Positions 5,270 through 60,532 of a stretch of DNA of 64,000 bases are shown here, in pieces. Below the pieces are notes generated by a model. It saw only the letters and a list, made by a program, of their open reading frames with translations. It was not told where the DNA came from and did no database searches. This DNA comes from Neisseria bergeri (GTDB taxonomy: Bacteria > Pseudomonadota > Gammaproteobacteria > Burkholderiales > Neisseriaceae), in contig POWY01000001.1 of NCBI GenBank assembly GCA_003044455.1, positions 372,001 to 436,000 of the forward strand, read 5' to 3'. Made by a program: the position numbers and the translations under genes. Numbering within the stretch: position 1 is the first letter of the stretch; every line of letters starts with the position of its first letter.

Positions 5270-5305
5270 AGCGTGTATGAAAACGGTTGGACGGTAAAAC
5301 GGGAA

Positions 5306-5336
5306 ATGCCGTCTGAAAAAGGGTTTCAGACGGCAT
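5306..5336. terminator. Inverted DUS pair between DyP peroxidase and recB
   Basis: DUS 5306-5317 and inverse 5325-5336. It follows the minus-strand peroxidase gene and lies just upstream of recB. Likely terminator of the peroxidase transcript. Confidence 0.7.
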
Positions 5337-5344
5337 CGTCCGGC

Positions 5345-6253
5345 TTAGAGGTTTTGCAGGCGTTCGACAGACGGCGCGTAGTAGTATCCGCCCGAAACGG
5401 CGGCGGAGAGGTGCCGGAGCAGCAGGTCGGTTTTGCCGTCCGTGTCGCCGAACATACTCAATAATTGTGCTTCGATATTGTGCAGCGTGCGGCAGTATGC
5501 GGTAAACATCAAACCGTGTTCGCCGCTGATTTTGCCGAAGGGCAGGCTGCGGCGGACGATTTTCAGACCAATGCCGTTTTCTTTCAGGTTGACGCGGCCG
5601 AGGTGCGAATCAGGCAGGCGGACATCGCGGCTGAATTCGTCGTTGGTTTCCTTGCTGCGTCCGACCGAGGCTTCCTGTTCGGCGACGGGGACAGCATCCC
5701 ATTTTTTCAAATCGTGCAGGTATTTTTGCAGCAGGACATAGCTGCCGCCCGCATCGGGTTTTCCTTCGGGGATGATGGCGACTTCGCGGACGTTTTCATC
5801 GCCCTGCGGGTTTTCCGTGCCGTCGACGAAACCGTCCAGTCCGCGATCCTGATACAGACGCAAACCGTGTTCTTCGGACGCGACGCATATGCTGTCGCCG
5901 AACGCGCCCAAAACGGATTGGGCAAGCGCGTAGGCGGCGTTTTGGCGGAAGGATTGGATGTGGATGTACATATCGTGCTGCGTGGACGGTGCAAGCCCGT
6001 TGCCCATTTCGGGGAAAGGTTTGATTTCACTGCCTTCGCCCGTATGTCCGAATGTTTTCCAGGCTTTGCTGCCGAAGGCGATGGTCAGACCCAGAATATC
6101 GTCCGGAAAACGGGTTTTCAAGGCGGATAACGCGTCGAGCGAAGCGCGGCAGGCGGCTTTAATATCGTTGAGGCGGTTGGCGGCGAAGTCGGCTTCGATA
6201 AAGATGCCGGCTTGGGCGTGGTCGGGAATGATGGCGGATTGGGGCGTGTTCAT
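5345..6253 (-). CDS. DyP-type heme peroxidase (YfeX-like)
   Basis: 302 residues from the ATG at 6253, preceded by AAAAAGGAAC; a start seven codons upstream is less well placed. The signature GFVDGTENPQGDENVREVA and the later LPFGKISGEHGLMFTAYCRT block identify the dye-decolorizing peroxidase family, YfeX/P-type, with the distal Asp and Arg in GFVDGTENP. There is no signal peptide or Tat motif, so it is probably cytoplasmic. Family members use H2O2 and a heme b cofactor; physiological substrates are uncertain. It is monocistronic between two DUS-bounded units. Confidence 0.88.
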   Translation of the reverse strand: MNTPQSAIIPDHAQAGIFIEADFAANRLNDIKAACRASLDALSALKTRFPDDILGLTIAFGSKAWKTFGHTGEGSEIKPFPEMGNGLAPSTQHDMYIHIQSFRQNAAYALAQSVLGAFGDSICVASEEHGLRLYQDRGLDGFVDGTENPQGDENVREVAIIPEGKPDAGGSYVLLQKYLHDLKKWDAVPVAEQEASVGRSKETNDEFSRDVRLPDSHLGRVNLKENGIGLKIVRRSLPFGKISGEHGLMFTAYCRTLHNIEAQLLSMFGDTDGKTDLLLRHLSAAVSGGYYYAPSVERLQNL

Positions 6254-6535
6254 GATGTTCCTTTTTGGTGTCATCTGTTTCGGGTGGATTATAGCACCGA
6301 ATCGGCAGGCGGATTTTTGCCGGAACAGCGTGTGTGAATCCGCCGTTTGCGTACCTGATGCCGCTTTTCGGTTTCGTGCCGCCCGCCGCCTTTTCCGCCC
6401 CCTTTATTCCCGCTTCCGGCGGCTTCGGCATATCTTTCCCATTCTGGTTTGGAATAACCATATAAAAAAAGTATTCTTTGTGTTTGCCGCAATTTCACTT
6501 AGAATGCCGCACTTGCACACTTTTTACAGGAGAGG

Positions 6536-7363
6536 ATGATGTTGGAAAAATTCGTACTCGGCGGCATTGCCGCATTGGTTTTGGCGGCCTGCGGCGGTTC
6601 GGAAGGCGGCAGCGGAGCATCTTCCGCGCCTGCACAATCGGCAGTTTCCGGTTCTTTAATCGAGCGCATCAACAATAAAGGCACGGTTACCGTCGGCACG
6701 GAAGGCACTTACGCACCGTTTACCTACCACGACAAAGACGGCAAATTGACCGGCTATGATGTGGAAGTAACCCGCGCAGTTGCCGACAAACTGGGCATCA
6801 AAGTCGAATTTAAAGAAACGCAATGGGATTCGATGATGGCGGGTTTGAAGGCGGGGCGTTTCGACGTGGTGGCAAACCAAGTCGGCCTGACCAGCCCCGA
6901 ACGTCAAGCGACATTCGACAAATCCGAACCTTACAGCTGGAGCGGTGCGGTTTTGGTCGCGCGTAACGACAGCAACATTAAATCCATAGCCGACATTAAA
7001 GGCGTGAAAACCGCGCAATCCCTGACCAGCAACTACGGCGAAAAAGCCAAAGCGGCAGGCGCGGAACTCGTACCGGTGGACGGTTTGGCACAATCGCTGA
7101 CCCTGATTGAACAAAAACGCGCCGATGCGACTTTGAACGATGAATTGGCGGTATTGGACTACCTGAAGAAAAACCCGAATGCCGGCGTGAAAATTGTTTG
7201 GTCCGCACCTGCCGATGAAAAAGTCGGTTCCGGTCTGATTGTCAACAAGGGCAATGACGAAGCCGTGGCGAAATTCAGCACGGCAATCAACGAGCTGAAA
7301 GCCGACGGCACGTTGAAAAAACTGGGCGAACAATTCTTCGGAAAAGACATCAGTGTTCAATAA
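6536..7363 (+). CDS. Polar amino-acid ABC transporter, substrate-binding lipoprotein
   Basis: 275 residues. The lipobox LVLAACGG places acylated Cys20 after a short signal peptide, so it should be anchored in the cytoplasmic membrane facing the periplasm. The rest is a bacterial extracellular solute-binding domain, family 3 (GTEGTYAPFTYHDKDGKLTGYDVEVTRAV). Two adjacent ATGs occur at 6536 and 6539. It is the first gene of a three-gene importer operon with the permease and ATPase that follow. Related neisserial binding proteins take cystine or cysteine; the ligand here is inferred, not shown. The 6254-6535 upstream region is AT-rich near 6460-6505 and should hold the promoter. Confidence 0.9.
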   Translation: MMLEKFVLGGIAALVLAACGGSEGGSGASSAPAQSAVSGSLIERINNKGTVTVGTEGTYAPFTYHDKDGKLTGYDVEVTRAVADKLGIKVEFKETQWDSMMAGLKAGRFDVVANQVGLTSPERQATFDKSEPYSWSGAVLVARNDSNIKSIADIKGVKTAQSLTSNYGEKAKAAGAELVPVDGLAQSLTLIEQKRADATLNDELAVLDYLKKNPNAGVKIVWSAPADEKVGSGLIVNKGNDEAVAKFSTAINELKADGTLKKLGEQFFGKDISVQ

Positions 7364-48630: not shown

Positions 48631-49827
48631 CTATTTCACCGGTATTTTCTTACCGTATTCTGCGATTGCCTGTCGGAAAATGCCGATCAACCTGCCTATA
48701 ACGGCATTTTCGCCAAATTCGTTCAGACAGTTTTCCCTAAGTCGGGTAGGTTCAAAATCAGAGTGGTGTTCATACATTTTGATGAGTGCGTCGGCAAGGG
48801 CATCGTCGTCGTCAACAGGAACCAAATATCCGTTGCCGTCTGAAACAATAGATTCCGCACCGCCGCAGCGTGTTGCAATGACGGGCAATCCTTGGGACAG
48901 TGCTTCGATATAGACCACGCCGAAGGTTTCTGTGCGGCTGGCAAGGACGAATGCGTTGCTGTTCCTCATCAAATCCAATACTGCTTCGGGCTGTAATGCG
49001 CCTAAAAATGTAACGGCATGGGCAATTCCCAACTGACGTGCCTGCCGTTTCAGGTTTGTTTCTTCTTGTCCGCTGCCGCCGATATTCAAACGGAGGTTGG
49101 GGTGTTTTGCCAAAGCACGGGCAAAGGCAGTGAGCAGGACATCGTGTCCTTTGAGGCGGCGAAGGTGCGAGACGGTGCAGAAGGTAAAATATTTGTCCGG
49201 ACGATTGATTTGCGGGGGATTGAAGGCTCGGGTAAAGATGTTACCCAGAATGTTAGGCAGATATTGCCATATAGTGCCGTATTTATGTTGCAGGACTTGG
49301 GCGAAACGGCGGCTGACAGCGAGCAGTGCGGAGGCGTGTGCCGCCGCATTTTTCATAGGCTGCCATTGGTGCGGGCGCACCAAACCGCGCGTAATGGTGC
49401 TGCTGTGTTCCGTGACGACATAGGGGATGCCGTATTTTTGGGAAATCTTGAAGGCAAGTATGCCGGCATAGTTCATACAGTGGGTATGGATGATGTCGGG
49501 AATGCCGTTTTCCCCGATATAGCACTCAAAGGCCTTTAATCCTGCCCGCACCCAGCGGATGCGGTCGATGTCGATGAACGGAAAACGGGGGAAGAAATAC
49601 ATGCTGCGCCATGTATAGATGTCCAAACCTTTTTGCCGGTATTGGGCAAAACCGTAAGGGCCGGTCAGGATGCTTGCCGGTTCTTTGCGCAAGTAGCGGA
49701 ACATCGGTGCAAGCACGGCGGTTTTGATGCCTTTGCGTTGGAGGGCCTGTGCTTGATTTTGGAAAAAAATCCCGTCCACATCCTGTTCGGATTGCGGATA
49801 CCATGAGGGGATGACGAGGACGTGCAA
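48631..49827 (-). CDS. GT4 family glycosyltransferase
   Basis: 398 residues. GT-B fold with C-terminal glycosyl transferase 1 motifs: FCTVSHLRRLKGHDVLLTAF, LNIGGSGQEE, and EALSQGLPVIATRCGGAESIV (E-x7-E region). The N-terminus MHVLVIPSWYPQSEQDVDGIFF is complete in homology but the only in-frame start is a TTG at 49827 without a ribosome site; this edge abuts the prophage. Acceptor unknown, probably an envelope glycan. Confidence 0.85.
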   Translation of the reverse strand: MHVLVIPSWYPQSEQDVDGIFFQNQAQALQRKGIKTAVLAPMFRYLRKEPASILTGPYGFAQYRQKGLDIYTWRSMYFFPRFPFIDIDRIRWVRAGLKAFECYIGENGIPDIIHTHCMNYAGILAFKISQKYGIPYVVTEHSSTITRGLVRPHQWQPMKNAAAHASALLAVSRRFAQVLQHKYGTIWQYLPNILGNIFTRAFNPPQINRPDKYFTFCTVSHLRRLKGHDVLLTAFARALAKHPNLRLNIGGSGQEETNLKRQARQLGIAHAVTFLGALQPEAVLDLMRNSNAFVLASRTETFGVVYIEALSQGLPVIATRCGGAESIVSDGNGYLVPVDDDDALADALIKMYEHHSDFEPTRLRENCLNEFGENAVIGRLIGIFRQAIAEYGKKIPVK

Positions 49828-49983: not shown

Positions 49984-50427
49984 TCAAAGTCCTTTTTTGA
50001 GGGCGGCGATGGCGATGTCGAGGATTCTGCGTTCGGCACCGGGTTGGAGTTGGTTGTTGCCGTTGATGGGGAGATAGGGGCGTGCTGGAAGGTTGGTTTT
50101 GTGACCTCGCCCTGCTCGTCCGCCGAGGTGGTGGATGGCGGCGTATTTTTTATTGCTGCCGATTCGGGCATAGTTGCTGCCAACCTGTGTAGTCAGGCTG
50201 GCGGCAAGTTGCCCGCTTTTTTGCAGGGTCTTGCCTCCCTCATCTGCGGCACGCCGACTTCGTTTCCACCGCTGCTCGCCCCAGCTTTCGGATTCGAAGT
50301 TTTCTTCGGTCATAAATAGCAACTCAGTTGCAATACCGCGCATCATGGGGCGGGTGTTTGCGGCGTTTTTAAGGAGCGTACTCAGACCGTGTTCGAGTTT
50401 GGCAGCATCGAGTTTGATTTCCAGCAT
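49984..50427 (-). CDS. Phage virion morphogenesis protein (Mu gpG type)
   Basis: 147 residues, starting MLEIKLDAAKLEHGLSTLLK and containing RRAADEGGKTLQKSGQLAAS and HHLGGRAGRG, as in the phage_tail_S/gpG family. In Mu, G acts in head/tail morphogenesis and lies just after F, as here. It is the last phage gene on this side. In Mu, protease I and capsid T would follow and are missing. Confidence 0.88.
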   Translation of the reverse strand: MLEIKLDAAKLEHGLSTLLKNAANTRPMMRGIATELLFMTEENFESESWGEQRWKRSRRAADEGGKTLQKSGQLAASLTTQVGSNYARIGSNKKYAAIHHLGGRAGRGHKTNLPARPYLPINGNNQLQPGAERRILDIAIAALKKGL

Positions 50428-50429
50428 AA

Positions 50430-51332
50430 TCAGCCTTTTAACAGTTTAAGCACCCAAGTCAGCGAAGCGGTGGACAGGGCGTTTTTGAATCTGTCGTTGC
50501 CCATCATCGTTTTCAGGGCAATGCGGGCGATGTCCGGATGGGTTACCTGCGCCTTATCCACTGCGATTTTCGCCATACGGGACAGCATAGACTTGCCTTG
50601 GTTGGCGTTGAAGCCCGCATTGGGGGCAATAAATTTGTTGTTGATGCGAATGCCGGTGCGCTGTGCGTAACGCTCCTCTCCGGTATAGGGATTCGCGCCT
50701 ATATTGACGGTGATGGACTCAAGAGTCGGTCGGGGCAGGACACGGTTTTCTCCCATACTGCGGGACAGCGGTTTGACACGGCAGCGACAGCGGTAGTCCA
50801 AAGGAGGGTACAAAGTATTCCACACGGGGTCGTCTGCGGCATAGACGCGACCGTGCATCATACGGTGGGTATCACGAGTGCGGCTGTCGTTGATGGCGAC
50901 GTACTGCCAATAAGGGTACGTGTCGATGGAGTCCATCATTTCGGCGTAGCGGCCCGCCATGTAGGCCGACTGCATATTGGTCAGATAGATGGTTTTCAGG
51001 CGGTGGGGGCTACCGAGCTGTACGCTTTGGGTTTCTCCTTCGGGATTTTGAACTTCCTGCCTGCCCCACCAGCCTTTGCGCTGTAGAACGGGGGCGAGTT
51101 CTCGGCTGAACTCTTCCAGCGTCCGGCCTTGTTCGGCGGCATCGACGACGGCGGAATAGATATCGGAGAGCACATCCATTTTGGCGGTTTTGGCCACCGT
51201 AAAGGCAGTGGCGTGCGCGTCGTCCAACATATCCTGCCAGTCCCAAGATACGGCAATGCCTTTTTGCTTGAGATAGGCGACGGCGGCTTCGGGTTTCATG
51301 CCGAAGACGGCTTTAATATCTTCGGGGTTCAT
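50430..51332 (-). CDS. Phage minor head protein (Mu gpF / SPP1 gp7 family)
   Basis: 300 residues. The C-terminal part holds the phage_Mu_F motif: DTHRMMHGRVYAADDPVWN then PPLDYRCRCRVKPLS. It is thought to help DNA entry with the portal. Somewhat shorter than Mu F. Overlaps the portal gene end by four bases. Confidence 0.9.
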   Translation of the reverse strand: MNPEDIKAVFGMKPEAAVAYLKQKGIAVSWDWQDMLDDAHATAFTVAKTAKMDVLSDIYSAVVDAAEQGRTLEEFSRELAPVLQRKGWWGRQEVQNPEGETQSVQLGSPHRLKTIYLTNMQSAYMAGRYAEMMDSIDTYPYWQYVAINDSRTRDTHRMMHGRVYAADDPVWNTLYPPLDYRCRCRVKPLSRSMGENRVLPRPTLESITVNIGANPYTGEERYAQRTGIRINNKFIAPNAGFNANQGKSMLSRMAKIAVDKAQVTHPDIARIALKTMMGNDRFKNALSTASLTWVLKLLKG

Positions 51333-52798
51333 GATTTAAGCTCCTGTGCTACTTCAATCCTGCCGACCAAGTCGGAAAGGAAAATCAGGCGCGCCAACTC
51401 GTTTTGCAAGGCGGTATCGTCCATATTCGGATAGGCGGCGGACAGACGATCGAGCAGGTTTTCGGCGGTTTCTCCACGACTTAATTCGGCCACTAGGACG
51501 GCAGTCAGCAGGTCGCCTTGTGTATTCAGACGGTCTGAGTTAGGGGCGAGTCCGTCGATGACCAAACCTGCATCCGTCAAATCGCCCTCGGTAAAGTCGG
51601 CAGCTTTTGCCTCCGGGCTTGCTTGAACGCCCTCGAGCAAATCCCCATCTTCCAAACCGTATGTGCGCTGCCAGTATTGCTTGGTGAACTTGGCACCGGC
51701 ATCCACCATCATCTTATCCCGTTCGGCACGCTCTCTGGTGCCGCTTTCCTCATTTTCGAACAGCACGAATTTCGGACGGGCAACGTCTCCGAAATTTATC
51801 TCTATTACCCACTCTATCAACTGATTGAACGTTGTCTCCACGATTCGTTTGTCGCTGTCGCGGATGTCGTCCGTTACTTCCAAGCCTGCGGTCGCGCTGG
51901 CGTGCGTGCTGTCTTTTTCGGTGGTTTGGTCTTGTCCGAGCAGCGCAATGCTGATTTCGGAGCGGCAATAACGAATGAGCTTGTCGTAGGCATCAATAGA
52001 TGAGGCCTTACCGCTTGCCTCGTGGATTTCGACGCTGGAATCATTGGGAATGGTGCCGACGCTGTTGCCGATCAGGGCTTCGAGCGCATCCAGCAGCTTG
52101 TCGGTATCCTGCGGGGTATTGGAACGAGGTTCTTTACCAATCAGCCAAGGCGCACCGTATTTTTCGGTGAACTGCATCCAGAATTTAAGGCCGCCGCGTT
52201 TGAAGGTGACCAGCCAAAAAACCAAGCCCAAATCGCCCAAACCGTAGGGGTTTAGATAATCTGCCTCATGTGTCGGGCAAAGAAACTTATAAGGCGGAGG
52301 AACGGTATCGGTCAGCCCATTTTGGATGTAACGCAGCTCGCCTTCGTCGTTGAAGGCGAACCACTCTTGCGGCTTGGCGATGATTTTGTCAGGCAGCCAT
52401 GCAGAATCGGTACGCCAAATCAGTTCGATGGGCTGGTAGCCGTAAAAAACGGCGTTTAAAACGTCTTTAATCAGGCGGTAAACATCGGTTTCAGCCAGCC
52501 AGCTATCGACAAAATCCCGGACATTTTTAGGGGTGTCGTCGCCCTCAAGCCGCCATTCGAGGCGGGCGACAGCTGCTTTTCGGCGGCGCACCAGCGAGCC
52601 GACCAACGGGTCGCGCATCAGCTCGCGGTAAATGGAGATTTGCCTGCCCATTTTGCGCAAAACAGGGTCGGGATTAGGTAGCCAGCCGTTGAAACCGCTG
52701 AAAAACGGGCGGGAAACGGCGAGATGTGCAGATAAATCCTGCGGCTTGAAGGTCATGATGCCTTGGCTGGTTTTGAGTTTGAGGTGGGGTTTGGGCAT
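51329..52798 (-). CDS. Phage portal protein (Mu gp29, DUF935)
   Basis: 489 residues. The pattern IYRELMRDPLVGSLVRRRKAAV and QFTEKYGAPWLIGKE fits Mu gp29/DUF935. Forms the ring through which DNA is packaged. A DUS-like TTCAGACGG lies at about 51527. Confidence 0.92.
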   Translation of the reverse strand: MPKPHLKLKTSQGIMTFKPQDLSAHLAVSRPFFSGFNGWLPNPDPVLRKMGRQISIYRELMRDPLVGSLVRRRKAAVARLEWRLEGDDTPKNVRDFVDSWLAETDVYRLIKDVLNAVFYGYQPIELIWRTDSAWLPDKIIAKPQEWFAFNDEGELRYIQNGLTDTVPPPYKFLCPTHEADYLNPYGLGDLGLVFWLVTFKRGGLKFWMQFTEKYGAPWLIGKEPRSNTPQDTDKLLDALEALIGNSVGTIPNDSSVEIHEASGKASSIDAYDKLIRYCRSEISIALLGQDQTTEKDSTHASATAGLEVTDDIRDSDKRIVETTFNQLIEWVIEINFGDVARPKFVLFENEESGTRERAERDKMMVDAGAKFTKQYWQRTYGLEDGDLLEGVQASPEAKAADFTEGDLTDAGLVIDGLAPNSDRLNTQGDLLTAVLVAELSRGETAENLLDRLSAAYPNMDDTALQNELARLIFLSDLVGRIEVAQELKS

Positions 52799-52819
52799 GA
52801 TATGTACTCTTTAAATACT

Positions 52820-54322
52820 TTAATAACCTTCGGTTAACGCGCTTTTTCGGCGGATTCGGCGGCTGGCTACGCGTATCGGTCCGGTATTCAGCTCGCGGCT
52901 GGCGTAATGGGCAAGGACAAAGGCAATCGCCGCATCGCCGTGGCGTTTTTTGCCGTCTTGACTTTTGGTGCGTACATCGGGGATGCGCGGCACGCCTCTG
53001 ACCAGCTCGAAGGCGCGCAGGTCGGTCAGGATGTCTTCGTCTTTGGGAATGCCGTCCAGTGTGCCGTCTTCGAGGGCGGCTTTGAACGGCGCGGTATGGG
53101 TGCGGTACCAGTTTTCCGAGAGCATGACCGACTCGCATACCTCCGCGCCAAATTCGTCGCGCATGGCTTCGGCTATTGACTGACCGTTGCCGCGCGCGTC
53201 CAATGCTGCGCCGCGCAGATTGGGTAAGCCGTGCAACAGGTGTTTCATAATTTGCTCTTGTTGGGCAAACGGCATATTGCCCAACTCCAACACGAACGGC
53301 GGCTTAAGGCTTAAATTAGGCTGCTGCAATAAAGGGACGATGACGGTACGGTCTCCGCTGCGGGCAAAGTCTTCGCCGACAAAGCTGGTACGGGTTTTAT
53401 CCAAACCGTCGAGCAGCGGTTGCAGGGTGTCGGCTATCCAGTCCGCTACTTCGGCAGCACGGCGCGGCTCGGGCAAGAGGCCGAACTCATCGGTCTGGTC
53501 GTATCTGATAACCGGCGTGTATGGGGTCATACGGCTTTCGATTAAGGCACGGTTCAGCCATTTGCCGCCGCCGTTTTTGGGGATACAGTCCAACTCTTCG
53601 GATGCGTCGTCGCCGTAGAAATCACGGATTTCCTTGCACCACGCGGCTTCGCCGTCTGCCGTCCACTCTTTGCCCAAACGCAGGCAGATGCGGCGGTAGA
53701 GGCCGTCTGAAACAGCCTCGTCGAAAGTAATACGGTGGATGGAATAAGGTTTTTTGCCCGCACGAATGTCGGTAATCAGCTCGTTGAAGGGGTTATCCAC
53801 GCCGTCATGGGTAGAGATGATGTGTACCTGCCCGCCCCACATCAGCAATGCCATTGCCGCTTTGAGCAGCTCGCCGAGCTGTTCGTGGAACGCCGCCTCG
53901 TCAATGATGACGCGCCCCTGCTTACCGCGAAGGTTTGAGGGGCGGCTGGATAAGGCGGTAACGCGCCAGCCGGACGCGAAACGGATAACGAAGGCTAACA
54001 CGGCCTGGCGGTCGTCGCCTTCGACAAACACTTCCTCGGTTTCTTCGATTTCGCCTGCCGCCAGCTGATAATGCTTCGCCCAGCCTGCACAGTCTCGGAT
54101 AAACTCCAAGGCCATGTCTTTGTTATAGCCGATGTACCATGCGTCCATGCCTTTAGCGGATGCGGCCAGCAAGGCGGTATCGGCAGCTTCTCCCCAGCTC
54201 AAACCGATGCGTCGGGATTTTTCGCAGAGTTTGACGGGAGCGTTGTCGGCGCACCAACGCTGCTGATAAGGCAGCAGCGCCATCGGGGTGCGGTCTTCGA
54301 TTTTATTTTCAGGCGACATCAT
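52820..54322 (-). CDS. Phage terminase large subunit (Mu gp28)
   Basis: 500 residues. It lacks a canonical GxxGxGK P-loop; the ATPase centre is the KSRRIGLSWGEA type used by Mu-like gp28. RVIIDEAAFHEQL is Walker B; a C-terminal nuclease domain follows (FARSGDRTVIVPLL and ALDARGNGQSIAEA). Pumps DNA into the head. A DUS variant AGGCCGTCTGAA is at 53700. Confidence 0.93.
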   Translation of the reverse strand: MMSPENKIEDRTPMALLPYQQRWCADNAPVKLCEKSRRIGLSWGEAADTALLAASAKGMDAWYIGYNKDMALEFIRDCAGWAKHYQLAAGEIEETEEVFVEGDDRQAVLAFVIRFASGWRVTALSSRPSNLRGKQGRVIIDEAAFHEQLGELLKAAMALLMWGGQVHIISTHDGVDNPFNELITDIRAGKKPYSIHRITFDEAVSDGLYRRICLRLGKEWTADGEAAWCKEIRDFYGDDASEELDCIPKNGGGKWLNRALIESRMTPYTPVIRYDQTDEFGLLPEPRRAAEVADWIADTLQPLLDGLDKTRTSFVGEDFARSGDRTVIVPLLQQPNLSLKPPFVLELGNMPFAQQEQIMKHLLHGLPNLRGAALDARGNGQSIAEAMRDEFGAEVCESVMLSENWYRTHTAPFKAALEDGTLDGIPKDEDILTDLRAFELVRGVPRIPDVRTKSQDGKKRHGDAAIAFVLAHYASRELNTGPIRVASRRIRRKSALTEGY

Positions 54323-54449
54323 CGATACCTAGAATTTGCTTTCTAATCATTCGGCATGTTGATTGGGAAATTTTGATATTCCTACTCAAAGGATGGCGTC
54401 TGCCACGACTGGGAGGAAGTTTGTTTTTAAGTCTGATACAGGTAATCAT
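54309..54449 (-). CDS. Possible 46-residue phage protein between gp27 and gp28
   Basis: ATG at 54449 overlaps the gp27 stop as ATGA; the frame ends inside the gp28 start. It reads MITCIRLKNKLPPSRGRHPL then a possible HTH (NIKISQSTCRMIRKQILG). It fills the otherwise empty 54323-54445 gap. No homologue is known to me; the sequence is more AT-rich than its neighbours. Confidence 0.4.
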   Translation of the reverse strand: MITCIRLKNKLPPSRGRRHPLSRNIKISQSTCRMIRKQILGIDDVA

Positions 54450-54991
54450 GACGCAATCCCCAAGATCTGTTTGCGGATGGCTTCGGCAGCACTGTCGGAC
54501 AGCCCGCCTTTTTTCGCCTGCTTGGCCACGTTTTCGGCGGCGGCTTCGACTTTGGCTTTAACTTTTGCCTGATATTCTTTCAGGCGCGTTCCGGCGGTAA
54601 TCAGACCGCTGATTTTGCGCGCTCCTTCGCTCATGATGCCGAAGCGGTCGAGCGCGTTCAGTTCTTCAGACGGCATTTCGCCGATTTGCACCAATGCCTC
54701 GAACAATTCGGTCTGCAACATCGCCATCAGGGCTTCGGAGCGTGTATCGCCTTCATCGGCTGCGCCTTCGGCAATCAGGCGTGCCGCTTCAGTGCTGTTT
54801 TTGATGGCGGCAAACCGACGCTGGACTTTCTGCCCGTAGCGGTGGGCGGCGGAACGGCTGATTTCGTAGCCCTGCTGCTGCAACCATTCCGCCAGTGCCT
54901 GATAGTCGGCGAAACCGTTTTCGACGAGTTTGCGCTCAAATTCGTGTCGGACGGCTTCGGGTAATTGGTCTATCGTGCTGCGCTTGGCCAT
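54446..54991 (-). CDS. Phage small terminase-like protein (Mu gp27, DUF3486)
   Basis: 181 residues from the ATG at 54991; a longer frame lacks homology. MAKRSTIDQLPEAVRHEFER, then QQGYEISRSAAHRYGQKVQ (HTH-like) are DUF3486. Probably recognises phage DNA for packaging. A full host-type DUS is in frame at 54665-54676 (reads MPSEE). Confidence 0.9.
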   Translation of the reverse strand: MAKRSTIDQLPEAVRHEFERKLVENGFADYQALAEWLQQQGYEISRSAAHRYGQKVQRRFAAIKNSTEAARLIAEGAADEGDTRSEALMAMLQTELFEALVQIGEMPSEELNALDRFGIMSEGARKISGLITAGTRLKEYQAKVKAKVEAAAENVAKQAKKGGLSDSAAEAIRKQILGIAS

Positions 54992-54992
54992 A

Positions 54993-55310
54993 TCAGCTCC
55001 ACACTTTTTCGGGACGGGCGATACCGGCGCGGCACTCGACCGTGTATTCGGCAATATCGACACCCAAACTGGTCAGGTCGGCAAACCACAAGCCGTGCGG
55101 TGCTTTATTCAGCTCGACCATTTTGCGGTCGGCAAGGTAGTCGAGCTGCTGGCGCAGTTCGGTGGCGGTGGTCCGCGGGTAAATCGCGTTCATGATGTCC
55201 AGCAGAAAGGTCTCGCTGGTAGTGTGCGGGCGGGCTTTATTAAGGGTGTTGATAATGTTCCAACGCATCCCCTCGCGGCGTTGTTTGGCGATCAGTTCCT
55301 GGCTAATCAT
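54993..55310 (-). CDS. Mu gp26-like phage protein
   Basis: 105 residues with a winged-helix look: SETFLLDIMNAIYPRTTATELRQQLDYLADRKMVEL. It matches the VpaChn25_0724/Mu gp26 group of unknown role. Tightly packed between gp25 and gp27. Confidence 0.82.
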   Translation of the reverse strand: MISQELIAKQRREGMRWNIINTLNKARPHTTSETFLLDIMNAIYPRTTATELRQQLDYLADRKMVELNKAPHGLWFADLTSLGVDIAEYTVECRAGIARPEKVWS

Positions 55311-55627
55311 TTCTTTACGCTTTCCATTTTGTAGATTTCAGTGAGTTTTTCTGCGACGTTGTCGAGTTTGGCTTCGAGGACGACTTGATTGCGGATGTAG
55401 TCTTCGCGCAGGACGTATGTCAGCGGCAGACCGGCATTGAATTCCGCCAGTTTGTTTTCCATGATTTCGACTTTGCCTTGTAGGCGTTCCTGCTGTTTTT
55501 GGCGTTCGTCCTGCTGCTCGCGGAATTGCGCCAGCAGCATTTTGCCGAAGGTAAAACAAATGCCGAGGAAGGAGAGTAAAAAGCCGACAAGCTGCCAAAA
55601 TTCGATGTGGATAAAGGTTTTTTCCAT
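55307..55627 (-). CDS. Mu gp25-like membrane protein (DUF2730)
   Basis: 106 residues. One N-terminal membrane helix (FWQLVGFLLSFLGICFTFGKML) then a long charged coiled coil (QQDERQKQQERLQGKVEIMENK). DUF2730 pattern; role unknown. Overlaps the next gene by four bases. Confidence 0.82.
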   Translation of the reverse strand: MEKTFIHIEFWQLVGFLLSFLGICFTFGKMLLAQFREQQDERQKQQERLQGKVEIMENKLAEFNAGLPLTYVLREDYIRNQVVLEAKLDNVAEKLTEIYKMESVKK

Positions 55628-55630
55628 TGT

Positions 55631-55864
55631 TCACCTCTGAAATCCGTGTTCAAAATATTCTTGGCAGACAACACAGCGCGTACAGCCTTGGACGGCTTTT
55701 TGCCTGGCTTCGGGTATCGGGCTACCGCAATCTTCACAGTGGCTTAGGCTGGCGGTGGTTTCAGAGTGCGAAGCCTGCCCGTGGTACGGCGGTTGATGCT
55801 TTGCCAGGGATTCTGCGAGAAAGATGGCTTCGCGTTCGGATGCGCGGTCGGCAAAATCAGTCAT
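55631..55864 (-). CDS. TraR/DksA-type C4 zinc-finger phage protein
   Basis: 77 residues. The zinc finger is CEDCGSPIPEARQKAVQG then CTRCVVCQEYFE (C-x2-C-x17-C-x2-C). These small proteins bind the RNA polymerase secondary channel like TraR. Mu and its relatives carry one at this place. Confidence 0.9.
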   Translation of the reverse strand: MTDFADRASEREAIFLAESLAKHQPPYHGQASHSETTASLSHCEDCGSPIPEARQKAVQGCTRCVVCQEYFEHGFQR

Positions 55865-56147
55865 TTTTCAGACGGCCTTTCGTGTACCAGTTCTGCCAGC
55901 CCTCAATTTGGATTTCGAGCTTTTGACAGTATTCACCGTAGCGCACGGCATGGTTCAAGAGTTGTTCGGGAGAGCCGCCACTCAGACGCTCGGGGCGTTC
56001 GTATTTGACCAGCAGCCCGGTAGATACAGGCGGCAAATCCACTGTCGGTACGGTTTTAATCGGGGTATCCGAAGGCACGGTTGTAGAGGTGCAGGCTGTT
56101 AGAGCCGATACCGTTAAAACCATTGCCGTCTTTTTTAATCGTGTCAT
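55857..56147 (-). CDS. Rz1-like spanin lipoprotein
   Basis: 96 residues, signal peptide and lipobox LTACT (Cys19). It starts inside the Rz gene in another frame and extends past its end, the classic Rz/Rz1 layout. Longer than lambda Rz1. A DUS variant (AGGCCGTCTGAA) is at its 3' end (55867-55878). Confidence 0.75.
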   Translation of the reverse strand: MTRLKKTAMVLTVSALTACTSTTVPSDTPIKTVPTVDLPPVSTGLLVKYERPERLSGGSPEQLLNHAVRYGEYCQKLEIQIEGWQNWYTKGRLKND

Positions 56148-56445
56148 GCGTTTGCTCCTGTAAAGTGTTTTTGGTTTTATCCAGTTCGCTCAGGGCGGAT
56201 GCCAGCTCAATGCTTTGACGCTGCGCGAAGTCATGCCAACGCTTCGTTTCCGCCTGCGCTTTTTTAAGCTCGTCGGCGTATTGTTTGGCTGCCGCCTTTG
56301 ATGAGTTTTGGTAGGCGGTAATCAGGGCGGTTTGCTTGGCATCGGCTTTGTCGGCGGCATAGTGATAGCCGTTTAGCCAAATGCCCAAAACAATCAATGC
56401 ACGCCATGCCAATGCCGATTTGTTTTTGTACAAAAAGTCAATCAT
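56056..56445 (-). CDS. Rz-like spanin
   Basis: 129 residues from the ATG at 56445. One N-terminal membrane helix (WRALIVLGIWLNGYHYAADK) is followed by a long helical coiled-coil (KAAAKQYADELKKAQAETKR). It would pair with the embedded Rz1-like lipoprotein to disrupt the outer membrane at lysis. Confidence 0.75.
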   Translation of the reverse strand: MIDFLYKNKSALAWRALIVLGIWLNGYHYAADKADAKQTALITAYQNSSKAAAKQYADELKKAQAETKRWHDFAQRQSIELASALSELDKTKNTLQEQTHDTIKKDGNGFNGIGSNSLHLYNRAFGYPD

Positions 56446-56776
56446 TGCCGCTCCATTCTTCCGCATTCGCGGATTTTTTGATTTCTGCCAACTGCGGTAC
56501 GGCGGCGATGCCGCGTTTGATTAATGCATACCCGCCGACCAATGCGCCATAAGCCCACCAGAGCCATTCCGGCGCATCTGCTGTTTGAGAGAACTTATAG
56601 GTCATAGAAGCGGCTGCCACGTTTGCCCATAGTTTGGTATGGCTGATTTTCCCTGTGGCCGGATTAGAGACCAAGCCGCCCAGCCATCGGAAAAAGGCGG
56701 TTATTTGCGACGCTTTTTTTTGGCTGCGCGTTTCGAGGCGGCTACCCCGCTCTTGCGGTGGGCTTGCGTCCAACAT
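56438..56776 (-). CDS. DUF2644-like phage membrane protein (holin candidate; start uncertain)
   Basis: Up to 112 residues. The DUF2644 pattern FFRWLGGLVSNPATGKISHTKLWANVAAASMTY and a second helix WLWWAYGALVGGYALI (two hydrophobic segments) suggest a holin-like inner-membrane protein. The first ATG (56776) has AGGG directly against it, a poor spacing, and the first 30 residues overlap another gene. It may instead be made by -1 frameshift from that gene (see findings). Homology begins at about residue 27. Confidence 0.7.
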   Translation of the reverse strand: MLDASPPQERGSRLETRSQKKASQITAFFRWLGGLVSNPATGKISHTKLWANVAAASMTYKFSQTADAPEWLWWAYGALVGGYALIKRGIAAVPQLAEIKKSANAEEWSGND

Positions 56777-56874
56777 CCCTGAGTCGGCATGGCGTAGCGA
56801 ATGCCTAGGTCGCCGTGGCTGAAATCGGGCAGCATGGCTGCGGTCATTAGGGCGATGAGTGACTTTTTTGACAT
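56701..56874 (-). CDS. 57-residue phage protein ending at a slippery A AAA AAG
   Basis: ATG at 56874 with a good AAAGGGAGAC site. Sequence MSKKSLIALMTAAMLPDFSH, then GDLGIRYAMPTQGCWTQAHR, then KSGVAASKRAAKKKRRK. The heptamer A AAA AAG lies in frame four codons before its stop. No domain recognised. It lies between lysozyme and the DUF2644-like gene in the lysis cassette. Confidence 0.65.
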   Translation of the reverse strand: MSKKSLIALMTAAMLPDFSHGDLGIRYAMPTQGCWTQAHRKSGVAASKRAAKKKRRK

Positions 56875-56887
56875 GGTTTGTCTCCCT

Positions 56888-57391
56888 TTAATCAGTGTTA
56901 TCTGCAGACGCGTGAATCAGGTTTTGCGCCACACGGCGTACCCAGCCCTTGCCGAAAGAGGTGAACGTACCCAGCTTGGTATAAAAGACCAGACGCTCGG
57001 CGTTGAACCGCAATAAAAGGTCGTTTTCGGGGAGTGAATTGATGGCTTTGAGACTGATTTCGCCGATGATGCCGTCGTCCGGCACTCCTGCGGCGCGTTG
57101 GAGCATACGGGCGGCATTGCCGTAACCGTGGTTGACGCAGGCATCGAAGAATTGGAACGCGACCGCTTCCGGCATTTGGTCGGCGTGGTAACGCTGCCAA
57201 AACGCCTTTCGGTAAATGCCGATAGCCTGTTCACGCGTCATGGCACGCATGGAACCGTTAAAGCCGTTTGCCATTGCGGTACGCTTAGTGATGCCCCAAT
57301 TGGTTTCGCCGCCGGGGTCTTTGGGATGGTTGACGTAACCGCCCTCGTGGGAGAGGACGCGGTTGATGAATTGATTGAATTTGTCTGACAT
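56888..57391 (-). CDS. Phage endolysin, GH108 lysozyme (Mu gp22 type)
   Basis: 167 residues from the ATG at 57391. The N-terminal motif HEGGYVNHPKDPGGETNWGIT has catalytic Glu16; the C-terminal peptidoglycan-binding-3 part contains FDACVNHGYGNAARMLQRAAG. No signal peptide, so it needs a holin. First gene of the lysis cassette. Confidence 0.93.
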   Translation of the reverse strand: MSDKFNQFINRVLSHEGGYVNHPKDPGGETNWGITKRTAMANGFNGSMRAMTREQAIGIYRKAFWQRYHADQMPEAVAFQFFDACVNHGYGNAARMLQRAAGVPDDGIIGEISLKAINSLPENDLLLRFNAERLVFYTKLGTFTSFGKGWVRRVAQNLIHASADNTD

Positions 57392-57398
57392 GGAAAAT

Positions 57399-57428
57399 CC
57401 CCGTATTGAGGTTGAAATCAATACGGGG
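57399..57428 (-). terminator. Hairpin separating the 57485 gene from the lysis cassette
   Basis: CCCCGTATTGA and TCAATACGGGG form an 11-bp perfect stem over eight bases, followed on the minus strand by ATTTTCC. It would stop the repressor-side transcript before lysozyme. A DUS variant (57439-57450) is beside it. Confidence 0.7.
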
Positions 57429-57484
57429 ATTGTAGGGAAGGCCGTCTGAAGGGGCTTTTAATGGAGGTTAAAACCTAACGGAGG

Positions 57485-58072
57485 CTAAGGTGTAATACAC
57501 AGCTCAACTTCGGGATTGCATTTATCGCTTTTCATATATGCTTCATTTGAATCGTCCATTGCCTCAATCTGCATAGGCATATCCGATTTTGCCAACATGG
57601 AAACACTTTTTTGCTTACGATTGACCGTAATGAAATAATCCACTCCATTTTGATTATAAGTAGCTTGCATTTTTTTGACGGCAGTCTGAATAGCATCCAT
57701 AAATGCCAAACGGTCTATCTCGGAGTCCAACGCAATAGCTGTGTAATACATACTCACTAAGCAATTGTTGATTCTTTGGGTTTTAGCCAATGTATTACAA
57801 TTTATCCGGACGTTCTCAAAAATATCTCCTTCCTTGACCAGTTTTGCAGACAACGTAATGCCATTACCAAGGTCTTTTATTTGACGGGTCTTGCCTGCAA
57901 CAATTAAAATTCTTGGGAACAAATCCATCATTCCATTGTTCAATTCATTGAACCGTTCCGAAAATGTTTCAGGATGAGGACCAATCATCCCTCCTGTTTT
58001 CATCACTCCTCCCGCATTGACCAGATGTGCAGCAGCCAATAAGAAAATTCCAAGATATATTTTTGTTTTCAT
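57485..58072 (-). CDS. Secreted protein, function unknown, in prophage
   Basis: 195 residues from the ATG at 58072. Signal peptide MKTKIYLGIFLLAAAHLVNA. Mature part has four Cys (RINCNT, NNCLVS, SDKCNPEVELC) and mixed alpha/beta character (DAIQTAVKKMQATYNQ; VDYFITVNRKQKSVSM). Noticeably AT-rich against the phage late genes, as cargo genes often are. It lies 17 bases after the excalibur gene and in operon with the repressor. Not recognised. Confidence 0.75.
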   Translation of the reverse strand: MKTKIYLGIFLLAAAHLVNAGGVMKTGGMIGPHPETFSERFNELNNGMMDLFPRILIVAGKTRQIKDLGNGITLSAKLVKEGDIFENVRINCNTLAKTQRINNCLVSMYYTAIALDSEIDRLAFMDAIQTAVKKMQATYNQNGVDYFITVNRKQKSVSMLAKSDMPMQIEAMDDSNEAYMKSDKCNPEVELCITP

Positions 58073-58089
58073 TCTATTTCTTTCAGAAA

Positions 58090-58326
58090 TTATCTTTTCT
58101 TTTTCGGACAATTCTTGCCGTTTCCACCTGGGTTGCAGTCGCAAGCCTGACCGTCGCCATCCCTGTCCAAACTCTTCCAGCCGCTTAATCCTGCTTTTTT
58201 GCGGGCTTCATAAAATTTCTGCGCCGCCTGCTGCGTCGGAAAGTCTTTGCAGCTTTTCGCCAAGGCGGGCGTGGGTGAAGCAAACATCATAACAGACACC
58301 AGTAATGTCAAATAACCCTTTTTCAT
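58090..58326 (-). CDS. Exported excalibur calcium-binding domain protein
   Basis: 78 residues. Signal peptide MKKGYLTLLVSVMMFASPTP-ALA. The mature part is an excalibur domain: CKDFPTQQAAQKFYEARKKA and the DRDGDGQACDCNP calcium loop, then a basic tail GKNCPKKKR. The domain is usual in extracellular nucleases and surface proteins; alone its role is unknown. It starts nine bases after the repressor stop with AAGGAGAC. Confidence 0.88.
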   Translation of the reverse strand: MKKGYLTLLVSVMMFASPTPALAKSCKDFPTQQAAQKFYEARKKAGLSGWKSLDRDGDGQACDCNPGGNGKNCPKKKR

Positions 58327-58335
58327 TTTGTCTCC

Positions 58336-58983
58336 TTAATACAGGTTTTTCGAGACTTGAACCACCTGCCCGATGACCTGTATGTCGGGGTGGTCTGCCA
58401 GCATCAGCGGCATAGGCGGATAGGTCGTGTTGTCGGAAATCAAGAGCAGGTTGCCGTCAACTTGGCGTTGGATGCGTTTGACCCATAATACATCGCCACT
58501 GCGGATGACGTAGATATTGCCGTCGCGCGGGTTGGTTTTTGAGGTATCGACCAAGAGCGTGTCTTTGCTGCTGATGGTCGGCTCCATGCTGTCGCCTTTG
58601 GCAGTAACGATATTGAGGTCTTGCTCGTGCAGACCGCGTTGGCGTAGCCAGTCTTTACGGAACGCCAAATGGTTTGCCGGTTCGGTAACTCCATAGGCAG
58701 TTGTTCCATGACCTGCCGAAACTTCCACGTCGTACATCGGGATGTAGGCGTAATCATCTCGGTCATACTTCTCTACTCCGAGAAAATTTCCACTTTTTCC
58801 AATCAGCCAATTCGCATCAACCTGGAAAATTTCCACTATTGACTGAATCATTTTCAGAGGAGGACGTTGTTTTCCACGCAGAACATCTTTCAACCTGGTT
58901 GGTTTTTCTCCTATTCTTTCGGCAAATTCATCAATTGTAATCTTATTAAATTCAATAATTTGCCTAATTTTTTCCAAAACCAT
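58336..58983 (-). CDS. Prophage repressor, XRE HTH plus S24 peptidase
   Basis: 215 residues. HTH: IDEFAERIGEKPTRLKDVL; S24/LexA-like C-terminal domain with Ser132 (KGDSMEPTI) and Lys169 (VKRIQRQ). An Ala90-Gly91 pair (VEVSAGHGTT) sits where LexA and CI cleave. It plays the role of Mu c by position, divergent from ner, but Mu c itself is of a different type. Operator-like 12-mers lie upstream and inside the gene. Confidence 0.9.
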   Translation of the reverse strand: MVLEKIRQIIEFNKITIDEFAERIGEKPTRLKDVLRGKQRPPLKMIQSIVEIFQVDANWLIGKSGNFLGVEKYDRDDYAYIPMYDVEVSAGHGTTAYGVTEPANHLAFRKDWLRQRGLHEQDLNIVTAKGDSMEPTISSKDTLLVDTSKTNPRDGNIYVIRSGDVLWVKRIQRQVDGNLLLISDNTTYPPMPLMLADHPDIQVIGQVVQVSKNLY

Positions 58984-59124
58984 GCCAAAAAATCCTCAAA
59001 TAAGTGGAAATAAAACTTGAAATAGTGGGATATTTCCACTATTATTTATCCAACATTTAACCAAGATTGTTTAAATCTTTAAGCAATCACGATTCTAGCA
59101 CGAGAACGAAATAGGAGATATTCC
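58984..59124. promoter_or_regulatory. Divergent repressor/early operator region
   Basis: A 141-base AT-rich gap. AATAGTGG (59021-59028) and CCACTATT (59036-59043) form a palindrome; ATTTCCACT occurs at 59032-59040 and inverted at 59003-59011. These are probable repressor sites overlapping the two promoters. Promoter hexamers were not resolved. Confidence 0.7.
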
Positions 59125-59313
59125 GTGAAAGCAGAAAAAATTAAAGAAGGTTTCCGAGAGCGCGGCGAAACGATGAAAGATTGGTGCATTGCGCGTGGCT
59201 ATGATCCGACGTACGTGTCCCGCATTCTGAACGGAACCGTCAAGGCAAACCGTGGGAAGGCACACCGTATCGCACAGGAACTCGGTCTAAAAGCGAAACA
59301 GGAAGTGGCGTAG
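59125..59313 (+). CDS. Ner-like phage DNA-binding regulator
   Basis: 62 residues from a GTG at 59125 behind ATAGGAG. MKDWCIARGYDPTYVSRILNGT is a helix-turn-helix; the whole looks like a Cro/Ner protein. First early gene, where Mu ner lies. Probably turns down both early and repressor transcription. Confidence 0.78.
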   Translation: MKAEKIKEGFRERGETMKDWCIARGYDPTYVSRILNGTVKANRGKAHRIAQELGLKAKQEVA

Positions 59314-59321
59314 GAGTAAAT

Positions 59322-59612
59322 ATGGCAGAAAGTAAAAGGGTACAACGGCTATTGAGGGTCTTTATCGCGCTTGACGAGCATCCGATTATCGGTCTGAGCA
59401 ATAAGGATTTATCGGTCGGACTGGGGCTGACGCCATCACAAGTCAGCAGGGATATTGATGATTTGGTTGCATCGGGATTGGTCATCAAACTTGAAAACGG
59501 CAACTACGCCTACGGCATCAAAACCCTGCAAATCGCCGAGCGGTTCAGGCAGCAGCATGAACGGCTGCAAAGCAAGATTGCCGAAATAGGCAAGCGGGTA
59601 AATGTAGATTAA
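59322..59612 (+). CDS. IclR-type winged-helix phage protein
   Basis: 96 residues. RLLRVFIALDEHPIIGLSNKDLSVGLGLTPSQVSRDIDDL is split here as an IclR-like wHTH (first 55 residues), followed by a short helical tail. Eight bases after ner. Target unknown. Confidence 0.75.
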   Translation: MAESKRVQRLLRVFIALDEHPIIGLSNKDLSVGLGLTPSQVSRDIDDLVASGLVIKLENGNYAYGIKTLQIAERFRQQHERLQSKIAEIGKRVNVD

Positions 59613-59656
59613 CGGATTTTGAAATGTGCCGACGTCGGCACATTTGGAGAAACAAA

Positions 59657-60532
59657 ATGAGCAATGAAGTTGAAGTAATGGATGCGGTTGCAGTGCAAAA
59701 CTACCAAGCCGCGCACAGCGTGATGGTAATGGAGCAATGGGGTAACGGCGAAACCTATGACGAACCCACTTGGATTGAGCGCGGACGCCAAGCTGTACGG
59801 CAGACGATGGAAGGTATGTTTGAGTTGGGACGAGCTTTAATCATCTTAAAAGAACATACTGACCACGGACGGTTTGAACAAATTGCAAAAAATCAATTCG
59901 GATTAGGCAGGAGTGAGACAGCACGATTAATGCGGGCAACACAACGCTTCGCCACACCGCAAATGCAGAAAGCACAATCCAAGCTGATGGATTTGGGCAA
60001 ATCCAAGCTACTGGAATTATTGGTAGAAGATGACGTTACTTTGGTGGAACTGACCGAAGGCGGCGACATTAACGGACATACGTTGGATGACGTAGACCGC
60101 ATGACTGTGAAAGAGCTGCGCGTCGCCCTGCGCGAAAGCCGTGAAAACCTCGCCGCCAAAGACGAAGTGATGAAAATCAAAACAGCCAAAATTGATGAGC
60201 TGGCCGAGAAGCTGGCTAAGAAGCAAACCGTTGTAAGAGAGCCGAAGGCGGAAGACGTAGGCAGCGAGTTGGCGATGCAGTTAACAAGCCTTGAGGTCGG
60301 TATCCGCAGTCAAGTGAGCCGTCTGAAAGATTTGTTCGACCAACTTAATGCGCACAGTGAGGCACACGGGATCAGCCATCAGGCAAAGATGGTCGGCACG
60401 CTCAATCAAATTATTTTGGACTGCGAGCAACTGCGCGAAAGCTATGCCCTGCCGACCGAAGCACCGACAGACAATGTGCCGGAATGGTTGGGCGGTGAAA
60501 CGGGAGAAGGCGATGAATCCGGCAATGATTGA
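59657..60532 (+). CDS. DUF3102-like phage protein
   Basis: 291 residues from the ATG at 59657 (TTTGGAG). The N-terminal half resembles DUF3102 (FELGRALIILKEHTDHGRFEQIAKNQFGLGRSETARLMRAT), a ParB-like/HTH group; the C-terminal half is coiled coil (RESRENLAAKDEVMKIKTAKIDELAEKLAK). Ends overlapping the transposase start by 20 bases. Confidence 0.72.
   Translation: MSNEVEVMDAVAVQNYQAAHSVMVMEQWGNGETYDEPTWIERGRQAVRQTMEGMFELGRALIILKEHTDHGRFEQIAKNQFGLGRSETARLMRATQRFATPQMQKAQSKLMDLGKSKLLELLVEDDVTLVELTEGGDINGHTLDDVDRMTVKELRVALRESRENLAAKDEVMKIKTAKIDELAEKLAKKQTVVREPKAEDVGSELAMQLTSLEVGIRSQVSRLKDLFDQLNAHSEAHGISHQAKMVGTLNQIILDCEQLRESYALPTEAPTDNVPEWLGGETGEGDESGND

Follow-up and report, generated by a model that had tools for sequence, protein, structure and literature searches.

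In a Mu-like prophage of Neisseria bergeri, the repressor gene is followed on its own strand by two genes for exported proteins and then by the endolysin gene. We propose, with evenly balanced confidence, that this arrangement is a lysogenic operon with exchangeable exported exclusion cargo, combined with a hairpin that locks the downstream endolysin. What we observe is the gene order, the exchange of genes in the slot between repressor and endolysin, the conservation and covariation of the hairpin, and the burial of the endolysin Shine-Dalgarno sequence in folding calculations. Exclusion genes in lysogenic operons and a lock of the T4 gene e type are already known, and the present arrangement would be a variant of these. 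Coordinates are those of the window, the whole 64,000-nucleotide stretch analyzed.

The probable repressor operon and its prophage

The genes concerned are as follows.

58336..58983, minus strand: phage repressor with helix-turn-helix and S24 (LexA-like) domains, 215 amino acids (PF00717 7e-24, PF01381 1e-7, phrog_4 2e-45)
58090..58326, minus strand: P0002, exported Excalibur-domain protein, 78 amino acids (PF05901 27.1 bits, phrog_5854 2e-12)
57485..58072, minus strand: P0001, exported 195-amino-acid protein without known family (signal peptide by eye)
56888..57391, minus strand: endolysin, glycosyl hydrolase 108 (PF05838 3e-29, phrog_315 8e-56)

The repressor is presumably the first gene of an operon with P0002 and P0001. 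On the minus strand, 9 bases separate repressor and P0002 and 17 bases separate P0002 and P0001; a first-pass annotation of the same DNA had described co-oriented genes with these gaps, and the coordinates agree. The AT-rich character that it gave the second exported protein holds for the cargo, seen as a dip in GC content to 0.40 at 57400-57999 from 0.50-0.59 in windows between 49.9 and 56.5 kb. Scans of 56000-60000 listed no minus-strand promoter-like site and a single weak terminator-like site, at 58510-58494 within the repressor gene, leaving repressor and cargo genes on one strand with no clear terminator or promoter in between. We infer that the repressor is co-transcribed with both cargo genes, and 58983-57485 is very probably a lysogenic operon with exported cargo.

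Upstream of the repressor lies a region of regulatory appearance.

59021..59043, no strand assigned: palindrome AATAGTGG...TTTCCACTATT, set between the two boxes of a promoter-like site that reads rightward (-35, 59017; -10, to 59045)
58823..58840, no strand assigned: the operator-like repeat once more, within the repressor coding sequence (repeat search, family D1)
59125..59313, plus strand: small helix-turn-helix regulator, divergent from the repressor (phrog_925 2.5e-23)

The palindrome is a candidate repressor operator, and the small regulator, named by its position, stands in the place of Ner.

The surrounding prophage looks complete, with a left end placed by eye near 49.9 kb, adjoining a glycosyltransferase gene. 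It has a Mu-like set of a transposase core (the rve match scores under its cut-off), ATPase B, GemA, Mor, and Mu-type head and tail genes. Beyond the window the element goes on with Mor, GemA, capsid, sheath, tape measure, and baseplate J, and with a D12 methyltransferase whose end falls at about 86.2 kb in window coordinates. The lysis/head operon, which the endolysin gene opens, points leftwards from 57.4 to 50.0 kb, immediately downstream of the repressor operon and on the same strand. Taking 49984-57391 together with L161/L162, this operon occupies the left end of the prophage, and the remaining late genes run rightward beyond the window. Mor, GemA, AAA ATPase B, capsid, sheath, and baseplate are shared with the Neisseria and Pasteurellaceae Mu-like phages MuMenB, Pnm, SuMu, and 3927AP2, from which the window prophage differs in the leftward lysis/head operon downstream of the repressor. 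It also differs from phage Mu, in which the endolysin comes after the C activator, and from 3927AP2, in which it comes after a Mor-family gene. At the host boundary, the glycosyltransferase-like gene (48631-49827, by eye) starts with TTG about 150 bases or less from the prophage left end, and the insertion may have displaced the start that it had originally.

An exchangeable slot between repressor and endolysin

Loci were collected by repressor (20 loci), by endolysin (the best 80 of 106 matching stretches), and as stretches of Neisseria genomes. Two endolysin loci, L098 and L102, were left out because their matches begin inside the protein, and the remaining 78 plus six Neisseria genome stretches gave a base of 84 in which a slot was counted if a repressor match lay on the same strand no more than 4.7 kb upstream of the endolysin. 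A slot was found in 25 of these 84 loci (the endolysin part being drawn from the best 80 of 106 matches), all of Neisseria type as judged from endolysin identity or genus; L031-L050, viral-collection contigs that carry no host name, were so called from 83-100% endolysin identity. We take the other contigs of that collection to be of Haemophilus or Moraxella type, from the look of their sequences. Six non-Neisseria loci are not among the 25 because the presumed repressor has a helix-turn-helix match and lacks the S24 domain.

The slot measures 596-2,857 bp over the 25 loci and holds the P0001 family in 8, lipoprotein C17 in 6, the C19/C18 pair in 6, the C33 family in 3, and a PDC-M11 pair and a PH-domain gene in one each. 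These counts are not independent, since many loci are near-copies and certain isolates may have entered twice, through two collections. The presence/absence survey of neisserial Mu-like prophages that the first-pass annotation had called for finds P0001 relatives in 8 of 25 slots and other cargo elsewhere. Its view of a repressor operon with cargo set apart from lysis gains from the recurrence of the layout in 25 loci with six kinds of cargo, and from the published precedent of the transposable phage Fc02 (PMC9936078). An Excalibur motif occurs in 10 of the 25 slots, always with the P0001 family (8) or C17 (2). In L050, the P0001 relative and its Excalibur protein adjoin an SNase gene with an Excalibur domain of its own (PF00565 3e-27, PF05901 2e-9).

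Nineteen distinct cargo proteins, a selection that includes loci outside the 25, were compared with PADLOC, and seven gave clear matches: PDC-S42 (1e-22 and 5e-21), M18A (1e-105), M18B (2e-69), M11A (3e-128), M11B (7e-49), and S33 (2e-12). An eighth matched capP weakly (2e-4), and C19, C18, C44, C47, C32, and C17 gave no PADLOC match. PDC families are themselves defense candidates. Among the 25 slots, no more than 4 contain a clear match (L032 and L033, which are near-copies, L037, and L155); L057 and L066, outside the 25, hold others. In L155, the S33 match is a RelA/SpoT-domain protein, encoded after an NA37-family gene at 4905-6985. The candidates PDC-M11, M18, S42, and S33 thus occupy the same slot in related phages, and P0001 and P0002 match none of them. 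Together, slot exchange and the PADLOC pattern indicate a cargo slot that holds defense candidates in some loci and unnamed proteins in most.

A PDC-S42 protein followed by two small genes occurs both in the slot of the Neisseria-type L032 and in that of L057, from another phage group, whose upstream regulator has a helix-turn-helix and lacks the S24 domain. Genome G019 (L006/L119, G019:C50) retains only a C-terminal P0001-matching fragment, which adjoins a PH-domain gene, and a near relative of that gene fills the L044 slot, a pattern that suggests exchange with the chromosome. In L154, at 6047-7330, the endolysin frame runs into a DDE transposase (Pfam), with the rest of the endolysin downstream.

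The exported proteins P0001 and P0002

Both cargo proteins have signal peptides by eye. That of P0001 lacks a lipobox, and both are plain, with no visible anchor or surface-export signal, so the earlier idea that this cargo alters the host surface finds no support. The Excalibur domain of P0002 scores 27.1 bits against a Pfam cut-off of 22, and P0002 had no match among PDB sequences. P0001 has no convincing family match in Pfam, PHROGs, NCBIfam, or PADLOC, the last giving just a weak Cas11d match (E 0.015), and no match in phage or plasmid records. The first-pass annotation had held that neither protein has a known role in Mu growth, and that homologues with lysis or virion functions would refute its reading; none of the Pfam, PHROGs, NCBIfam, and PADLOC searches returned such a protein. 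Seven members of the P0001 family share four invariant cysteines in the part behind the signal peptide, which would fit an oxidizing compartment.

The P0001 profile is present in 5 of 83 genomes of the host family, all within the window's genus and one as a C-terminal fragment. Relatives were also seen in six viral contigs and at one place in species genomes (N. sicca), in scans with short peptide patterns that distant relatives may escape. In these searches the family is confined to Neisseria, and an Excalibur protein lies alongside in 8 of 8 slots. L005, from a different genus of the host family and 25% identical in its match, was rejected, having dropped out in the profile search and having no recognizable phage genes adjoining; the match is one of two tandem exported proteins at 776-1890, a pair flanked, by eye, by a malate:quinone oxidoreductase-like end and a transporter. 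YajQ/DUF520 was likewise set aside as a relative (19.1 bits against a Pfam cut-off of 23.2, below cut-off in NCBIfam, and E 0.91 for the PDB YajQ).

The AlphaFold model of P0001 is poor (pLDDT 53), and that of C17 reaches pLDDT 80. By sequence of elements the two models agree over the core (helix, three strands, two helices, three strands), and P0001 has an extra short C-terminal element and N-terminal helix relative to C17. A common fold is a possibility. The P0001 and C17 profiles give a non-significant probability of 1.2%, and P0001 against the C33 profile 0.1%, whereas the C17 and C33 profiles are related (91.9%, E 7e-7). The structural homologues of P0001 that the first-pass annotation had suggested seeking did not appear: none in the PDB scored 0.001 or better (best 4ygt, DUF4309, E 0.02), and VIA-align gave no row at Z 5 or more. 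For C17, the PDB likewise gave nothing at 0.001 or better, and BFVD gave one match at 1.5e-5, an ABC transporter periplasmic binding protein of Siphoviridae sp. ctLeG9 (TM 0.57, rmsd 18.3), followed by ranks of 2e-3 to 5e-3 that include protein 32 of Bacillus phage BCASJ1c. Compared with Moraxella-like lipoproteins (alignment A4), the P0001 and C17 profiles shared only signal peptides.

A hairpin over the endolysin ribosome-binding site

The endolysin leader has three features of interest.

57396..57431, minus strand: perfect 14-bp hairpin with an 8-nt loop (arms 57396-57409 and 57418-57431)
57398..57402, minus strand: Shine-Dalgarno-like GGGGA of the endolysin, in the 3′ arm (sequence and folding calculation)
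57429..57434, minus strand: -10-like hexamer TACAAT, overlapping the 5′ arm, a candidate late promoter

The 3′ arm stops four bases short of the endolysin AUG. A hairpin had previously been placed at 57399-57428 as a boundary between cargo and lysozyme; it is indeed present, but it is three base pairs longer and overlaps the endolysin ribosome-binding site, and so is not merely intergenic. Nor does it go with the repressor operon. In 25 loci the first gene upstream of the endolysin is Mor-like, and 21 of them keep the hairpin (drawn from the best 80 of 106 matches, with Mor confirmed for two members), and retention when a Mor-like gene replaces the cargo indicates that the hairpin belongs to the endolysin. 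Between the P0001 gene and the hairpin, 57439-57450 carries AGGCCGTCTGAA, which we take to be a DNA-uptake-like sequence; several related phages differ from it at one base.

We scored leaders with a strict test requiring a stem of at least 9 bp, the Shine-Dalgarno in the 3′ arm, and four or more consecutive T close to the start codon, criteria that were set after viewing the sequences, so that the test was not blind. It was passed by 57 of 78 endolysin leaders, or 43 of 62 distinct ones (from the best 80 of 106 matches), by none of 775 other ORF leaders of the same loci (mechanical ATG ORFs of at least 70 amino acids, not proven genes), and by none of 3,100 mononucleotide shuffles. A looser first test had passed 58 of the 78 leaders, from the same best 80 of 106, against 56 of 356 controls. 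Some passing leaders have unrelated stem sequences and the same design. Among the 21 of 78 that fail (best 80 of 106), L061 has a stem of 17 bp and only three T and L086 a stem of 10 bp; most of the other 19 form no extended stem, and identity to the window endolysin is 38-71% in these 19. For covariation we selected twelve leaders of Neisseria type, 11 of them distinct; 97.4% of cells were paired, against 22-46% in slid controls, and three pairs had changed on both sides. One of five covariation measures, further pair types, was not above shuffles, 448 of 500 of which scored as high. Of the 43 distinct passing leaders (best 80 of 106), 42 have a -10-like hexamer that touches the 5′ arm, against a rate of 0.42 in shuffles.

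In folding calculations, the Shine-Dalgarno is paired in a stable stem, its median unpaired probability being 0.0002 in the long transcript and 0.19 in a short transcript taken to start seven bases after the -10-like hexamer, which frees it only partly (range 0.01-0.42). The design is absent at the endolysin of phage Mu, where a terminator-like stem lies about 80 bases upstream (by eye). The literature searched, which included few subscription papers, held no prior description of an endolysin hairpin in Mu-like phages.

Discussion

We suggest that the hairpin is probably a lock on the endolysin ribosome-binding site. Because the lysis/head operon lies directly downstream on the same strand, lysogenic-operon transcripts would run on into the endolysin gene, and a lock would be useful here since nothing but the leader stands between the repressor operon and the lysis genes that it points at. 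By hiding the Shine-Dalgarno, the hairpin would keep endolysin synthesis low, and it may also end some of the transcripts. Upon induction, transcription from a late promoter that overlaps the 5′ arm would begin within the hairpin, leaving out part of that arm and freeing the ribosome site; both this late start and the translational block are what we infer from the leaders and their predicted folds. The closest parallel is T4 gene e, in which a hairpin is described that hides the lysozyme ribosome site in long transcripts, cutting lysozyme synthesis from early transcripts 100-fold, and the late promoter lies in the region of the 5′ strand (PMC3014915). The present leader differs from T4 gene e in that the T-run doubles as the spacer to the AUG, in that the upstream operon is lysogenic or Mor-bearing, and in being a prediction from sequence.

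Terminators are common at operon ends, and the hairpin could be just the intrinsic terminator of the upstream operon, sitting on the ribosome site by happenstance; passing leaders do have four to seven T in a row close to the stem (at least four being built into the test). We consider this unlikely. The window copy has only four T, and the terminator scan, whose rule is a G+C-bearing stem followed by at least five T, did not list it, probably because only four T stand behind the G-run; related phages have longer T-runs at the hairpin. The Shine-Dalgarno pairing of the 57 passing leaders, being a test criterion, is not independent evidence in this matter. What counts against happenstance is that the stem ends a few bases from the AUG in phages with unrelated stem sequences and that 0 of 775 other leaders pass. 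For the window, termination by itself is a poorer explanation than a lock, and the two roles can coexist.

For the cargo, the most likely reading in our analysis is that P0001 and P0002 provide envelope-level phage exclusion made in the lysogen, a reading suggested by part of the company that the slot keeps and by three precedents. In the record of Vibrio phage K139, cI, orf2, and glo lie on one strand behind PL under the label "transcription of lysogenic operon," and glo is annotated "periplasmic protein; involved in phage exclusion." The likeness is in the order of repressor first, then accessory genes, on one strand; the differences are that P0001 and Glo have no significant similarity (BLASTP E 0.067 over 48 columns; profile probability 0.3%), that the K139 operon runs on into the integrase, and that K139 is not Mu-like. 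Fc02 is a transposable phage with a divergent ner and an exclusion gene, sie1, that apparently belongs to the repressor transcript in the lysogen, although sie1 lies upstream of the repressor (PMC9936078). Similarly, in Streptococcus phage TP-J34 the lysogeny module includes the gene for the Ltp lipoprotein, which the prophage transcribes; the likeness of an envelope protein in a lysogeny module is drawn from location and expression, not sequence, and Ltp differs in being a lipoprotein of a Gram-positive host (PMC3952083). Against exclusion, P0001 has no significant relative of known function and no Glo match. If the reading holds, the repressor would be made together with the Excalibur protein and P0001 in the lysogen, and both exported proteins would act at the envelope, stopping DNA delivery by other phages.

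The nuclease in L050 makes a serious rival of anti-transformation, in which the cargo would block uptake of naked DNA and so guard the prophage from recombinational replacement, phage exclusion being secondary or absent. Natural competence is a trait of Neisseria, Haemophilus, and Moraxella, transformation in Campylobacter is reportedly blocked by a DNase that the Mu-like element CJIE1 carries, and in L050 a P0001 relative and an Excalibur protein stand beside the SNase with its Excalibur domain. We nonetheless rate this distinctly unlikely, given that the window's slot has no nuclease and that 4 of 25 slots carry candidates of other defense kinds. Classical lysogenic conversion, a change to the host surface or to interaction with the animal host, would suit two proteins that look exported, and a meningococcal Mu-like prophage is said to encode surface-exposed antigens; lacking a visible anchor or surface-export signal, and with cargo that differs among phages and includes defense candidates in some, it seems very unlikely to us. 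The slot leans in part towards defense, and surface change is not demonstrable. That P0001 and P0002 lie directly upstream of the lysis operon on its strand could mean that they are made late, as accessory lysis or periplasm-conditioning factors. This we find highly improbable, as they sit behind the repressor, with the hairpin and the candidate late promoter only downstream of them, do not occur in other phages that have a closely related endolysin, and match no lysis family.

Returning to envelope-level exclusion, which would be the function of both proteins in our model, we offer a bolder and doubtful speculation. P0001, the C17 lipoprotein, and the membrane-anchored C33 may be one fold family of phage-carried envelope shields. 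Its soluble, lipid-anchored, and membrane-anchored forms would replace one another, frequently with an Excalibur protein as partner, and would stop phage DNA crossing the periplasm; the slot that encodes them would be kept safe by a terminator and ribosome-site lock in one, acting on the endolysin.

The slot is a predictable site in Neisseria Mu-like prophages where accessory cargo, partly defense-like, accumulates, and the exported P0001 family, which has no known relatives, supplies candidates for envelope-level phage exclusion. The arrangement also shows how a phage may place its lysis genes behind the repressor without killing the lysogen, and the lock, if true, would carry the T4 gene e mechanism over to transposable phages.
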